Shown piece by piece: positions 33,344 through 38,637 of a stretch of 64,000 nt of DNA. The notes under the pieces are model-generated. The model did not search any database. It was not told the origin of the DNA and saw only the letters and a list, made by a program, of their open reading frames with translations. The stretch spans positions 310,001 to 374,000 of the forward strand of contig NZ_JAUOEM010000003.1 of the NCBI RefSeq assembly GCF_030540875.1, written 5' to 3'. The first letter of the stretch is position 1. Each line of letters begins with the position of its first letter. Position numbers and translations under genes: made by a program. Origin of the DNA: Flavivirga amylovorans (GTDB lineage: Bacteria > Bacteroidota > Bacteroidia > Flavobacteriales > Flavobacteriaceae).

Positions 33344-34636
33344 TTATTTTAATAAAAAAGCTTTTAAATCGTCGTAAGTAGAAATTGCTATAGCAACTTT
33401 CTCTTTGCCCATTACGGATTGAATTTGTTCTGGTAATGGTTGTTCTTCTTTTATAACGTCTTCCACAACATCTAAAAATTTGGTAGGATGTGCTGTTTCT
33501 AAAAAAACACAATGCGCATTCGGATTTTCTTTTAGATATGCTTTAGAGCCTAAATAACCCACGGCACCATGAGGATCTGCCACATAATTATATTGTGTGT
33601 AGATTTCTTTCATAGCTTCTCTGGTTTCATCATCAGAAAAACTAAAAGAAGATACATTATCCTTTAATGTCTCAAATTTGTTTTTATAGATTTCCTGAAT
33701 ACGAATAAAGTTACTAGGATCCCCAACATCCATAGCATTACTGATGGTTTGTACTGACGGCTTTGGAGTGTATAACTGTGTTTTTAAATACTCCGTAACC
33801 ACATTGTTTTTATTGTTTGATGCAATAAAGTGATTAATTGGTAGGCCTAATTGCTGTGCCATCATGCCTGCACAAACATTTCCGAAATTCCCACTTGGTA
33901 CAGAGAACACAATATCATCATACTTTTTATGAAGTTGCTTGTATGCAAACATAAAGTAGAATAATTGTGGTAACCAACGGGCTACATTTATAGAGTTAGC
34001 AGAGGTTAACTGCATGTTGTTTGTTAATGTATGATCTAGAAAAGCTGTTTTAACCATAGCTTGGCAATCATCAAATGTGCCATTAACTTCTAAGGCAGTA
34101 ATGTTTTGTCCAAGTGTGGTTAATTGTTTTTCCTGTATATCACTCACTTTTCCGCTAGGGTAGAGGATCACTACATTTACACCCTTAACGCCTAAAAAAC
34201 CATTAGCTACAGCACCACCGGTATCACCAGAAGTAGCGACTAAAACAGTCACTTTATTGATGTTATTTTTATTAAAATAGCCTAGACAACGTGCCATAAA
34301 ACGTGCACCTACATCTTTAAATGCCATGGTTGGACCATGGAATAGCTCTAAAGTTGAGATATTATCATTCAATTGAACCACAGGAAATTCAAAAGACAAG
34401 GTTTCCTCAACAATAGTTTTTAAAACATCTTCTGGAATTTCTGGAGATACAAATTGTTTAATGGCCTGAAACGCAATCTCTGTATGTGATAATTGATCTA
34501 TATTTTTAAAGAAATCATCACTTAAAGGGGTAATGCTTTCTGGAAAATAGAGTCCTTTATCTGGCGCCAACCCTTTTATAACCGCATCTTTAAAAGATGT
34601 ATTTGGTGCTTGTTTGTTTAGTGAGTAATAATTCAT
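33344..34636 (-). CDS. thrC: Threonine synthase
   Basis: 430 residues. PLP-dependent conversion of O-phosphohomoserine to threonine. The PLP lysine is in GPTMAFKDVGARFM, with ATSGDTGGAVANGFLG (phosphate binding) and SANSINVARWLPQ downstream; the N-terminal YYSLNKQAPNTSFKDAVIKGLAPDKGLYFPE is typical of the long bacterial/yeast class. Last gene of thrABC; 143 bp separate it from thrB, containing dispersed repeats. Confidence 0.97.
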   Translation of the reverse strand: MNYYSLNKQAPNTSFKDAVIKGLAPDKGLYFPESITPLSDDFFKNIDQLSHTEIAFQAIKQFVSPEIPEDVLKTIVEETLSFEFPVVQLNDNISTLELFHGPTMAFKDVGARFMARCLGYFNKNNINKVTVLVATSGDTGGAVANGFLGVKGVNVVILYPSGKVSDIQEKQLTTLGQNITALEVNGTFDDCQAMVKTAFLDHTLTNNMQLTSANSINVARWLPQLFYFMFAYKQLHKKYDDIVFSVPSGNFGNVCAGMMAQQLGLPINHFIASNNKNNVVTEYLKTQLYTPKPSVQTISNAMDVGDPSNFIRIQEIYKNKFETLKDNVSSFSFSDDETREAMKEIYTQYNYVADPHGAVGYLGSKAYLKENPNAHCVFLETAHPTKFLDVVEDVIKEEQPLPEQIQSVMGKEKVAIAISTYDDLKAFLLK

Positions 34637-34779: not shown

Positions 34780-35703
34780 TCATAAAACCTTAATGCCTTC
34801 CGTATTAATTTTCGTTATATGAATTTCGAATGCAATCTTTGTTTTAGAATACACGTTATTCATGGCTTCTTTTACATTTTTAGCGTTTTCTAATCCTTTG
34901 CTTAACGCAAAAATGGATGGGCCAGAACCAGATATTCCAGCTCCTAGAGCGCCTTGTTCTAGTACAGCTTCTTTTACTTCTTTGTAATGAGGAATTAATT
35001 GACTTCTATAAGGTTCTACAATAACATCATGCAACGATTTTTGTATTACATTATAATCACTTGTGTGCAGTCCATGGATTAAACTTCCAAAATTTGCCCA
35101 TTGCGTAATAGCATCTTGCAATGGTACTTCTTTTGGAAGAATGCCTCTAGCTTCAGATGTTTTTACTTCTATTTGTGGATGAATAATGGTCGCATATAAA
35201 TCCTTAGGAGAAGGAATTTCTAAAATATCTATAGGCGAAACACTTTTAACCAATGTAAAACCTCCAAAAATAGCAGGAGCTAGGTTATCTGCATGGTCAC
35301 ATTTACTTGCTAATGCTTCTCCTTTAATAGCAAATTGTGTTAATTCCGTTTTGCTATAAGGTCTCCCTAAAAGTTCGTTCATTCCAAAAACACTACCAAC
35401 AGCACTGGCAGCACTACTACCTATACCACTACCAGGTTTTATATTTTTGTAAATTTCAATTTCAAAGCCACAATCTGGTTTAGCAGCTTCATACATGGCC
35501 AAAGCTGAAACACCAGCCACATTCAATGCTGCCTCAAACGGTAAATCAAAGCCTTCAATTTTGGTGATGTGAATCCCTTTTTTATCGGTTTTTCTTATCA
35601 CCATTTCATCGCCAATACTGTCTAAACAGAATCCTAATACATCAAATCCACAGGCTACATTAGCAACCGTTGCAGGCGAAAATATTTTTATTTCGTTTTT
35701 CAT
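34780..35703 (-). CDS. thrB: Homoserine kinase
   Basis: 307 residues of the GHMP kinase family. The phosphate-binding loop is PGSGIGSSAASAVG, the opening SPATVANVACGFDVLGF is specific for homoserine kinases, and the C-terminal GAGISGSGPSIFAL is the third GHMP motif. It makes O-phosphohomoserine for ThrC. Middle gene of the operon. Confidence 0.97.
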   Translation of the reverse strand: MKNEIKIFSPATVANVACGFDVLGFCLDSIGDEMVIRKTDKKGIHITKIEGFDLPFEAALNVAGVSALAMYEAAKPDCGFEIEIYKNIKPGSGIGSSAASAVGSVFGMNELLGRPYSKTELTQFAIKGEALASKCDHADNLAPAIFGGFTLVKSVSPIDILEIPSPKDLYATIIHPQIEVKTSEARGILPKEVPLQDAITQWANFGSLIHGLHTSDYNVIQKSLHDVIVEPYRSQLIPHYKEVKEAVLEQGALGAGISGSGPSIFALSKGLENAKNVKEAMNNVYSKTKIAFEIHITKINTEGIKVL

Positions 35704-35797: not shown

Positions 35798-38242
35798 TTA
35801 ATTATTCCCTATTCTAATAATATCCGCAAATAACCCCGAAGCTGTTACTTCTGCACCTGCACCAGCACCTTTAATAATCATAGGCTGTTCTGGGTAACGT
35901 TGTGTGTAAAACATAACAATGTTATCTTTCCCTTCCAGGTTATAAAAAGGATGCCCTTCTGGTATTTCCTGTAGACCAACATTTGCTTTGCCGTTATTTA
36001 ATTGTGCTACATATTTTAATTGGCAGTTTTTCGCTTTCGCGGAAGCGTATAAACCTTGATAATGCGTTTCATCTTCTATTAATGTTTGATAAAAATCATC
36101 AACCGAATCACTTTTCAGTCCAGATTCAGATAAGAAAGGTGTATTTGAAATATCTTCCAAATTCATTTCCATACCACTTTCACGAGCTAAAATCAATATT
36201 TTTCTAGCCACATCAACACCACTTAAATCGATTCTTGGATCTGGTTCTGTATAGCCCTCTGCTGCTGCTTGTTTAACAACATCATAAAACTTAGTAGTAT
36301 CATTAAAATTGTTAAATACAAAGTTTAAACTTCCAGATAAAACAGCTTGAATGGATGTGATTTTATCACCTGAAGCTATTAAATTATTCAGGGTATCAAT
36401 AATAGGCAAACCAGCCCCTACATTAGTTTCAAATAAATAAGGCGCATTATATTTAAGAGATAAACGTTTTAATAAACTGTAGTTTTCATAATCACTTGAA
36501 CAAGCAATTTTATTACAGGCTACTACACCAATACTTTGACGTAAGTAGTTTGCATATAAATTTGCAACATCTTTATTAGCTGTAACATCGACAAAAATAC
36601 TATTACGTAAGTTTAGAGACTTTGTTTTTTCAAAAAAGCCTTCTAACGTGGCTTTTTCTCCAGAAACGAGTTGATCTTTCCAATTGTCTAAATTGAGACC
36701 TTCCTCATTAAAAATCATGGTTCTGGAATTTGATAATCCAGCAATGCGTAAATTGATTTTTAAATTTTCTTTTAAATACTTGTTTTGCTGCTCTATTTGA
36801 TCTACTAATTTTTCACCAACGTTTCCAACACCAGTAATAAATACATTTAACTGTTTTGTTTCAATTTCAAAGAATTGTTCATGTAAGGTATTTAAAGCCT
36901 TTTTTACATCGTTTTCTGATATTACGGCTGAAATGTTCTTCTCGGAAGCTCCTTGTGCAATAGCACGGATGTTAATATTGTTTTTTCCTAAAGTGCTAAA
37001 CATCTTACCACTAATCCCTTGATGGTTTTTCATATTGTCACCAACCAGTGCAATAATGGAAAGGTTTGTTTCTACTATAATAGGATCAATTTTATTTAAA
37101 GCAATTTCGTTTTCAAAAGCAGTGTCAATAGCTTGTTTAGCCATTTCAGCATCTTTTTCTTCAATCCCTAAACATATGGAATGTTCAGACGATGCTTGAG
37201 TAATCAAGATGATGTTAATCTTTTCCTGAGATAAAGTCTCAAATAAACGCCTAGAAAACCCAGGAATTCCAATCATACCACTGCCCTCTAAAGTTAATAA
37301 AGCAATATCTCCTATATTACTAATACCTTTTACAGGAGATGTAGAGTGTGTTTCTTCATTGGAAATAATGGTTCCTACAGCATTGGGTTCTAACGTATTT
37401 TTTATGTGAATAGGAATTTCTAAGTCTAATACGGGTTGTACTGTTGGTGGGTATAAAACTTTGGCACCAAAGTGAGATAATTCCATAGCTTCCTGATATG
37501 AAATTTTATCAATAGGATAAGCTTGTTTTACCAGTTTAGGATTAGTCGTATACATACCACTAACATCTGTCCAAATTTCTAACTGATTAACTTTTAATGC
37601 AGCAGCAACAATAGCAGCAGTAAAGTCTGAACCGCCACGACCTAAAGTTGTTTGTTCTCCAACTATAGATTTTGAAACAAATCCGGGAAGGATCGTAATT
37701 TGCTGTGCAGCCGTTTTGAAATAATCTACTATATTTTTATTAGTAAGATTATATTCAACTTCAGCCTTGGTGAAATTTGAATTTGTTATGATTAATTCTT
37801 GAGAGTTTTTACGATTTACAGATAAACTACGATTTTTCATAGTTTCTGAAATAATATATGAAGACAATAACTCACCAAAACTCACTAATTTATCGGATGT
37901 TTTTGGAGATAACTCGTTTATTAAATAGATACCATCTAGTAAACTTTTTAATTCATCTAGTCTGGTTTCTGTGTATGCTATAATGGATTCTGCACTGTCT
38001 GGGTTTAATTCATTTATAGTATTTAAATGAATATCTTTTATAGTATTAAAGGTGTCTCTAAAACCTGTGTTTTTATTTTGAGCTTGTTTACCAGCTAAAA
38101 GTAGCTTGTCTGTAATACCACCTACAGCAGAAACAACACATATTATGGAATCTTCTTGTGAATATCTAGTTAAGATATCTATGACGTTATTTATGTTTTT
38201 TGCAGAACCAACTGAAGTTCCTCCAAATTTTAAAACTTTCAT
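35798..38242 (-). CDS. thrA: Bifunctional aspartate kinase/homoserine dehydrogenase
   Basis: 814 residues, the full fused length. Aspartokinase domain: KFGGTSVGSAKNI at the N-terminus, GRGGSDFTAAI, WTDVSGMYTTNPK; two ACT regions (about 310-460) for allosteric control; homoserine dehydrogenase from about residue 465: FITGVGNVGEKLVDQI, ETNVGAGLPIIDTLNNL, GSLNFVFN, AAAEGYTEPDPRIDLSGVDVARK. It catalyses the first and third steps from aspartate to threonine. A Thr/Ile-rich leader ORF and hairpin lie just upstream. Confidence 0.97.
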   Translation of the reverse strand: MKVLKFGGTSVGSAKNINNVIDILTRYSQEDSIICVVSAVGGITDKLLLAGKQAQNKNTGFRDTFNTIKDIHLNTINELNPDSAESIIAYTETRLDELKSLLDGIYLINELSPKTSDKLVSFGELLSSYIISETMKNRSLSVNRKNSQELIITNSNFTKAEVEYNLTNKNIVDYFKTAAQQITILPGFVSKSIVGEQTTLGRGGSDFTAAIVAAALKVNQLEIWTDVSGMYTTNPKLVKQAYPIDKISYQEAMELSHFGAKVLYPPTVQPVLDLEIPIHIKNTLEPNAVGTIISNEETHSTSPVKGISNIGDIALLTLEGSGMIGIPGFSRRLFETLSQEKINIILITQASSEHSICLGIEEKDAEMAKQAIDTAFENEIALNKIDPIIVETNLSIIALVGDNMKNHQGISGKMFSTLGKNNINIRAIAQGASEKNISAVISENDVKKALNTLHEQFFEIETKQLNVFITGVGNVGEKLVDQIEQQNKYLKENLKINLRIAGLSNSRTMIFNEEGLNLDNWKDQLVSGEKATLEGFFEKTKSLNLRNSIFVDVTANKDVANLYANYLRQSIGVVACNKIACSSDYENYSLLKRLSLKYNAPYLFETNVGAGLPIIDTLNNLIASGDKITSIQAVLSGSLNFVFNNFNDTTKFYDVVKQAAAEGYTEPDPRIDLSGVDVARKILILARESGMEMNLEDISNTPFLSESGLKSDSVDDFYQTLIEDETHYQGLYASAKAKNCQLKYVAQLNNGKANVGLQEIPEGHPFYNLEGKDNIVMFYTQRYPEQPMIIKGAGAGAEVTASGLFADIIRIGNN

Positions 38243-38261: not shown

Positions 38262-38302
38262 GAAAAAATATTTTTTGATGTTGTAATTGTATAAATTACA
38301 AC
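38262..38302 (-). promoter_or_regulatory. thr attenuator hairpin
   Basis: On the minus strand: GTTGTAATT (38302-38294), loop TATAC, AATTACAAC (38288-38280), a perfect 9-bp stem, followed by an A-run and then TATTTTTTC, 38 bp before thrA. The 5' arm can instead pair over eight bases with ATTACAAC inside the leader ORF (38347-38340). This is the arrangement expected of leader-peptide attenuation. The terminator is AT-rich, so its strength is uncertain. Confidence 0.65.
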
Positions 38303-38323
38303 GATAGCCTGAAGAATATATAG

Positions 38324-38431
38324 TTAGTAACCCCAAAGGGTTGTAATAATTGTAGTTGTTCCAAAAATAGCAGTAGTTCCTTCTGTTAAAGAAGAGATAC
38401 GTATATCTGTATTTTGGTTTAAATGATTCAC
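38324..38431 (-). CDS. thrL: thr operon leader peptide
   Basis: 35 codons from a GTG at 38431 to TAA at 38324. The C-terminal half reads EGTTAIFGTTTIITTLWGY: residues 19-31 include seven threonines and three isoleucines, the two amino acids whose supply depends on ThrA. E. coli thrL is similarly rich in Thr and Ile. The start is about 22 bases after a promoter-like -7 box. Between the leader stop and thrA lies a hairpin that overlaps the regulatory pairing. No homologue search was possible; the composition and position are the evidence. Confidence 0.75.
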   Translation of the reverse strand: MNHLNQNTDIRISSLTEGTTAIFGTTTIITTLWGY

Positions 38432-38452
38432 TATATTCTATATATTACTACT

Positions 38453-38487
38453 CAAAAGTATTACTTTTAGCCTAATAAAAAAACAAA
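38453..38487 (-). promoter_or_regulatory. thrLABC promoter
   Basis: On the minus strand: TTTG (38487-38484), a 23-bp spacer, TACTTTTG (38460-38453). Slightly long spacing, but both boxes match; predicted RNA starts just upstream of the leader ORF. Confidence 0.6.
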
Positions 38488-38637
38488 TGTTGCTTTATTT
38501 ATAATATTCTTATATAGAAGCTGTTTTCTTAAAATAAACGCGACGAAAGTAATGGAGAATTGAAAAATTAATAATAGAACTCATCTTGAATTTTCACTTA
38601 AATATAAAAGTATGGGTTTATCAATAAAAAAGAGTAA

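Follow-up and report, generated by a model that had tools for sequence, protein, structure and literature searches.

The thrABC locus and its leader region

The stretch of DNA analyzed here (referred to as the window) comprises 64,000 nt of a Flavivirga amylovorans contig and carries thrA, thrB, and thrC on the minus strand, as are all the leader features described below. The thrA gene (35798 to 38242; bifunctional aspartate kinase/homoserine dehydrogenase I) matches NCBIfam NF006959 with 1034 bits against a cut-off of 726, thrB (34780 to 35703; homoserine kinase) exceeds the cut-offs of both NF002288 and TIGR00191, and thrC (33344 to 34636; threonine synthase) exceeds that of TIGR00260. Upstream of the three genes, on the same strand and directly before thrA, lies a Thr-rich leader ORF of 35 codons (38324 to 38431), the translation of which (38431 to 38324) is VNHLNQNTDIRISSLTEGTTAIFGTTTIITTLWGY. 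It begins with GTG (mostly ATG in relatives), is immediately preceded by an in-frame TAG, and ends 81 nt from thrA. Among the 876 ORFs of 15 to 60 amino acids in the six frames of the window, the leader is the only one with at least 6 Thr in 14 residues. Its codons 25 to 31 (TTTIITT; 38339 to 38359), referred to below as the control codons, form the linker joining two hairpins of the leader RNA (P0 and P1; see below). This RNA is predicted to fold more stably than shuffled sequences (z = -2.35), 3 of 200 of which matched it.

The leader ORF lies behind a putative promoter, composed of a -7 box of the form TAnnTTTG, i.e., TACTTTTG (38453 to 38460), and a TTTG (38484 to 38487) resembling what we take to be the -33 consensus. 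The spacing (TTTG at 38487 to 38484, 23 nt, then TACTTTTG at 38460 to 38453) and the 35-codon ORF between these boxes and thrA had been given in a preliminary description of this DNA, and both are present in the sequence. TAnnTTTG is the form of the -7 box described in the text of a study on F. psychrophilum (PMC9723704). The box is kept in relatives, with TAnnTTTG 85 to 130 nt upstream of hairpin P1 in 73 of the 75 loci bearing the hairpin motif introduced below. The -33-like TTTG is weakly supported: TTG occurs within -29 to -21 of the -7 box in 30 of the 73 loci, and the -33 box is less well conserved than the T-tract around it. The leader promoter (38460 to 38500; 73 loci) sits in a strikingly conserved A-tract and T-tract. 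With the transcript start placed from the -7 box, positions 38433 to 38448 would presumably be the first transcribed nucleotides. What is expected of a leader-peptide attenuator is found at this locus, namely, a promoter (with a weak -33 box) and a short ORF rich in codons for the product of the operon and located directly before it.

Conservation of the leader peptide and its RNA structure

Relatives were collected in one scan of genome contigs with ThrA, and the best 80 of 357 loci (Flavivirga and others, mostly Flavobacteriaceae) were compared with the window. A hairpin motif, ACCC..GGGGT, precedes thrA in 75 of these 81 loci; it was not matched upstream of thrA in six (L083, L087, L097, L103, L106, and L107), of which L107 has a similar hairpin visible by eye. 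When the peptides were traced upstream from the hairpin, with its ACC codon setting the frame, 73 of the 75 loci proved to have a start codon downstream of the -7 box (70 ATG, 2 GTG, and 1 TTG). These 73 leader peptides have a mean length of 34.8 residues and contain 22% Thr and 11% Ile; their best-conserved stretch is GTTT..TTLWGC, and most have Thr before LWG, PWG, or RLG. In a codon table that ended at codon 27 and held the six commonest codons per position, Thr was found at codon 27 in 53 of 57 loci, at codon 26 in at least 47, and at codon 25 in at least 44. Codons 19 and 20, at which the preliminary description had placed the stalled ribosome, are variable and encode Thr at some of the 57 loci but not at others. 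The diversity of codon positions provides weak evidence of synonymous change, and the start codon and the ORF are conserved.

A model of the leader (R1) was tested on its own genome and on loci outside the model. It found one copy in the genome (next match, E = 4.6) and, with E below 0.01, 16 of 24 thrA loci outside the model, which are 16 of the 18 that bear the motif. Twenty of 30 further family loci were read (L011 to L030; L015 is apparently the same locus as L091); the model detected 5 of these 20 with E below 0.01, and by eye a P1-type hairpin ends the leader in 15 of them within the stretch printed. A P1-type leader was likewise seen by eye in 4 of 16 loci from a class-wide sample of 80 genomes, and L023 and L139 were judged by their ORFs to be further leader candidates. 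A search of the genome for the hairpin motif returned the thrA leader and two sites inside ORFs. In L087, L103, and L014, a -7-like box lies only ~50 to 125 nt before thrA and no leader was seen; the leader looks as if it had been lost by deletion. The leader stop of L040, L049, and L056 is 65 to 191 nt farther than usual from the aligned thrA start; the true start of thrA may be located farther upstream in these loci.

Comparison of the leaders supports four predicted helices. The pairings were assessed on alignment A1, which includes 57 of the 75 motif loci and leaves out 18 that are more divergent or lack the promoter. Hairpin P0 (38361 to 38417) has an outer stem, CCAAAA with TTTTGG (38417 to 38412 with 38366 to 38361), and an inner stem, TCTTCT with AGAAGG (38395 to 38390 with 38384 to 38379). 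Hairpin P1, AACCC-TTTG-GGGTT (38329 to 38342), spans the last Thr, Leu, Trp, and Gly codons. Hairpin P2, GTTGTAATT-TATAC-AATTACAAC (38280 to 38302), is the one that had been proposed as a terminator, and its 9-bp stem (GTTGTAATT, 38302 to 38294, with AATTACAAC, 38288 to 38280) is confirmed. The fourth, PX, is a putative long-range helix with moderate support, in which the 5' end of the RNA (38433 to 38448, before the leader start codon) would pair with 38328 to 38313, i.e., with the spacer following the leader stop (38313 to 38328). P0 and P2 covary strongly, and P1 is nearly invariant.

A pairing scan without prior structure compared the complementarity of 12-nt windows within and between sequences (54 sequences and 2407 window pairs, with L040, L049, and L056 dropped for their odd distance to thrA). 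Among signals backed by appreciable pairing energy, the inner stem of P0 was the strongest in the leader (z = -9.0), followed by P2 (-7.5), PX (-5.8), and the outer stem of P0 (-4.4). The z values should not be read as probabilities, since values of -6.6 and -5.2 also arose for window pairs with a near-zero energy of their own (about -0.8 kcal/mol). Better pairing within than between sequences was likewise seen for a hairpin formed by the first codons of thrA (38199 to 38226; GGAAC..GTTC; z = -4.5). In a test of own versus swapped partners, applied to the 57 sequences and to sets thinned to 40, 29, and 16, the inner stem of P0 and P2 each gave P = 0.0002 on 40, 29, and 16 sequences. The corresponding values were 0.0002 (57 sequences), 0.005 (40), 0.013 (29), and 0.08 (16) for PX and 0.0002 (40), 0.0008 (29), and 0.11 (16) for the outer stem of P0, and five control pairs gave P values of at least 0.07. 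P1 gave no signal because it hardly varies: all 57 sequences share the same three C-G pairs and inner A-U pair, and 18 of them lack the outer A-U pair. More distant loci retain P1 with changed letters or with the leader's stop codon inside.

Double changes were seen at 6 of 6 pairs in the inner stem of P0, 8 of 9 in PX, and 5 of 9 in P2, of which the outermost pair is mostly missing in relatives; PX pairs in 54 to 68% of cells. None of 500 shuffles reached the whole structure, on any of five measures. In a tree-based single-pair test, one P2 pair alone stood out (E = 0.10), the best P0 pair had an E value of 7, and PX was absent from the top 60; RNAalifold returned P1 and P2 only. Several other pairings were tried and rejected. 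The 3' arm of P0 with the spacer TTCTTC, as an antiterminator, showed no covariation (z = -0.70), nor did the 3' arm of P1 with the spacer (-0.39) or with the 5' arm of P2 (+1.86), though the P1 letters hardly vary. The Thr codons with the 5' arm of P2 were weak (-3.1; the lowest 1% of the scan begins at -3.7), and a pairing of the leader start with the region upstream of thrA (AATGAAT with ATTCATT) was seen by eye only and is uncompensated in several loci.

Partition functions, i.e., equilibrium folding that leaves out the order of RNA synthesis, were calculated for 54 sequences in seven states (no ribosome, or a ribosome footprint at codon 19, 20, 25, 27, or 30 or at the stop). P2 had a mean probability of 0.80 to 0.84 in all seven. 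The mean score of PX (summed pair probability over 10) was 0.36 without a ribosome (window, 0.93) and 0.26 to 0.36 across six states (window, 0.93 to 1.09), and PX was absent (0.00) only with the ribosome at the stop. The probability of P1 was 0.90 to 0.95 in the ribosome-free state and with the ribosome at codons 19 to 25, 0.15 at codon 27, and 0.00 at codon 30 and at the stop, and P0 likewise shifted with the position of the ribosome. The zeros of PX at the stop and of P1 at codon 30 and the stop arise because the footprint blocks those bases.

Terminators, the gap before thrA, and models of control

The preliminary description had P2 act as an intrinsic terminator and the leader segment ATTACAAC (38347 to 38340), paired with the 5' arm of P2, as the antiterminator, the position of the ribosome deciding between two exclusive structures. 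We consider such a classical two-way attenuator unlikely. The 8-nt complementarity of ATTACAAC to GTTGTAAT is indeed exact in the window, at least 7 contiguous pairs are possible at 19 of 57 loci, and real terminators of the classical kind are present in the hisG leaders and in some other thr leaders. The alternative pairing, however, does not covary: 71.7% of its cells are paired, a frequency equaled or exceeded in 492 of 500 shuffles, and own versus swapped partners gave P = 0.85 on 57 sequences and 0.76 to 0.94 on the thinned sets. Its mean probability was 0.000 to 0.001 (54 sequences, largest single value 0.049) in the seven states, codons 19 and 20 included, in several of which the ATTACAAC arm lies partly or wholly under the ribosome footprint. 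The switching of P2 by the ribosome was not borne out either, P2 being unchanged across the states. The T-run said to follow the hairpin exists (38268 to 38263) but starts 11 nt past a stem with only two G-C pairs; P2 is conserved but AU-rich, with no T-run adjoining it, and a terminator scan of the window found no terminator in the thr leader. The 8 nt 3' of P2 contain a mean of 3.07 T (57 loci), fewer than the 3.44 that the T content of the gap would predict. In the alignment of upstream regions, proposed earlier as a check, the ORF is conserved and P2 shows compensatory changes; the alternative pairing does not covary. The broader reading, a Thr-rich leader under its own promoter before thrABC that most likely serves leader-peptide attenuation, is supported by the conservation seen; the leader is a real, conserved element, and the mechanism proposed for it needs replacing.

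The hisG leaders offer a comparison from the same genus. By the same script, all 17 hisG leaders have a terminator-like site, as against 2 of the 75 thr leaders when sites behind P1 are considered; counting P1 itself, 13 of the 75 have a weak terminator-like site, 11 of these being P1 with 5 T in 8 nt. Among other thr leaders, 8 of 20 were positive, mostly as P1, as were all three thr leaders of another design (L024, L144, and L145). The latter, from other Bacteroidota, have Thr/Ile leader ORFs in a classical design with a strong terminator before thrA; therefore, the phylum contains thr leaders of two kinds. In Flavivirga-like genomes, hisG (L113, L114, L116, L119 to L122, and L124) has a textbook attenuator with a His run (MNFIQLHHHFHICSQA.., by eye) and a G+C-rich hairpin with a T-run, the 5' arm of which is complementary, by eye, to the leader segment UCUCAAGCG. 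L114, the hisG leader of the window's own genome, has the His run and a strong terminator. By eye, the two leaders are alike in being short with a run of codons for the amino acid produced; unlike the thr leader, hisG has the G+C-rich hairpin and T-run in all 17 loci fetched and, in Flavivirga-like genomes, the leader segment complementary to the hairpin's 5' arm. The genus therefore has a classical attenuator (hisG), and the thrA leader is built differently.

The gap behind P1 has an unusual composition. Its 86 nt contain 13 C and 4 G in the window and 14.4% C and 5.9% G across the 75 loci, compared with 12 to 13% C and 14 to 16% G in the background; it is mainly a shortage of G that produces the C>G signal. 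In 52 of the 75 gaps, there are at least two C for every G, a ratio reached in 7 of 160 segments upstream of ORFs in these loci, in 5 of 44 such segments in the window, and in 8 of 17 further P1-type leaders (76 nt), with the caveat that the loci are related to each other and that background segments partly overlap genes. The genome has a rho gene, so that Rho and a G-poor, C>G gap, as judged by composition alone, are both at hand. Taken together with PX, the gap and Rho suggest attenuation of the Rho type.

We consider it probable that the thrABC leader is a threonine-responsive leader-peptide attenuator built on a four-helix RNA. In our working model, of Rho-type or pausing attenuation with PX formed at a Thr stall, scarcity of Thr-tRNA would stall the ribosome on codons 25 to 31, leaving the spacer free so that PX can form. 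With plentiful Thr, the ribosome would reach the stop codon and cover the spacer, and PX could not form. The G-poor, C>G gap of ~80 nt before thrA would then be exposed and transcription stopped there, with Rho and/or pausing at P2 as the most likely cause, in preference to an intrinsic terminator. Hairpins P0 and P1 may act as pause sites, by which the polymerase is kept in step with the ribosome. We put forward tentatively the possibility of a distinct Bacteroidota class of amino-acid attenuators that lack an intrinsic terminator. In such a class, PX formed at the Thr stall would mask the region of Rho loading, and polymerase could proceed to thrA; with the ribosome at the stop, PX would be blocked and the operon thereby turned off.

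Other readings of the leader have to be weighed against this one. The Thr-sensing leader might instead act on the translation of thrA or on mRNA stability, via P2 and a conserved AU-rich stretch that precedes the thrA start; the scarcity of terminator-like sites, the conservation of P2, and the similar sequence up to the thrA ATG in close relatives are consistent with this. P2, however, ends 37 nt before the thrA start, and the mean unpairedness of the start region is 0.47 to 0.48 in all states (window, 0.56, and 0.49 with the ribosome at the stop), which makes such control somewhat doubtful. That the polymerase is stopped by P1 rather than P2, with P1 serving as a weak terminator or pause site that a ribosome at the late Thr codons keeps from closing, seems to us quite unlikely. 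No hairpin of the leader is more constant, and P1 resembles a terminator in 11 of the 75 leaders and in several of the further family loci. The P1 of the window and of the other leaders among the 75, however, does not pass even this loose test, and a ribosome at the stop would open P1 as well.

Two further explanations would deprive the leader of any role. Constraints on the promoter and 5' untranslated region could account for the conservation of a nonregulatory ORF and hairpins, a reading to which the absence of the leader from some relatives lends itself; we nevertheless regard it as very improbable, given an enrichment of Thr exactly before the Thr operon, the conservation of start and frame, and the compensatory changes. 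The least probable alternative is that an internal promoter located after the leader (TATCTTTG, which precedes P2 in some of the loci) makes the leader irrelevant to thrA. A TAnnTTTG near -65 does occur in a minority of loci, but it is absent from the window, and the T's and G of this box are part of the covarying P2.

Relation to known leaders

The leader RNA had no match in Rfam, either at the gathering threshold or with E up to 10, with the Thr_leader family (RF00506) included, and Rfam searches of the window returned no T-box covariance match. The sole gathering match within the window was RNase P RNA (RF00010; 14180 to 14529). The E. coli thrABC attenuator has a Thr/Ile-rich leader peptide. 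The leader described here resembles it in having a Thr/Ile-rich peptide before thrABC, with presumed stalling at Thr codons, and differs from it (RF00506) in having no canonical terminator, another peptide end, and a four-helix RNA. Rho-dependent leader-peptide systems, such as tnaC, mgtL, and corL, sense tryptophan, Mg2+, or proline by other stalls; the presumed translation of a leader without an intrinsic terminator, and the Rho action in the gap proposed here, are the points of likeness. To our knowledge, none of these three has a PX-like helix.

Leader peptides have been considered in Bacteroidota before. In F. psychrophilum, clues for leader-peptide attenuation before amino-acid operons are described (PMC9723704); thrA and threonine are absent from the main text of that paper, and its section 19 contains no structure such as the one proposed here. 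Small ORFs in long 5' untranslated regions of B. thetaiotaomicron are called reminiscent of attenuation leader peptides in the text of PMC7366714, in which the example is a hypothetical gene and the main text does not mention threonine. The terms Bacteroid-, Flavobacter-, and thrA do not occur in PMC2965389, and among the matches listed in the open-access literature, we found no description of a thr leader in Bacteroidota. An origin of attenuators in gamma-proteobacteria is suggested in PMC3766115.

Thr-dependent leader-peptide control of thrABC outside Proteobacteria is, at the level of comparative evidence, well supported by the loci presented here, and the four-helix thr leader RNA would represent a structure for which Rfam has no family. 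The presence of a hisG leader with a textbook terminator and a thr leader without one in a single genome makes the question of how the polymerase is stopped directly testable.
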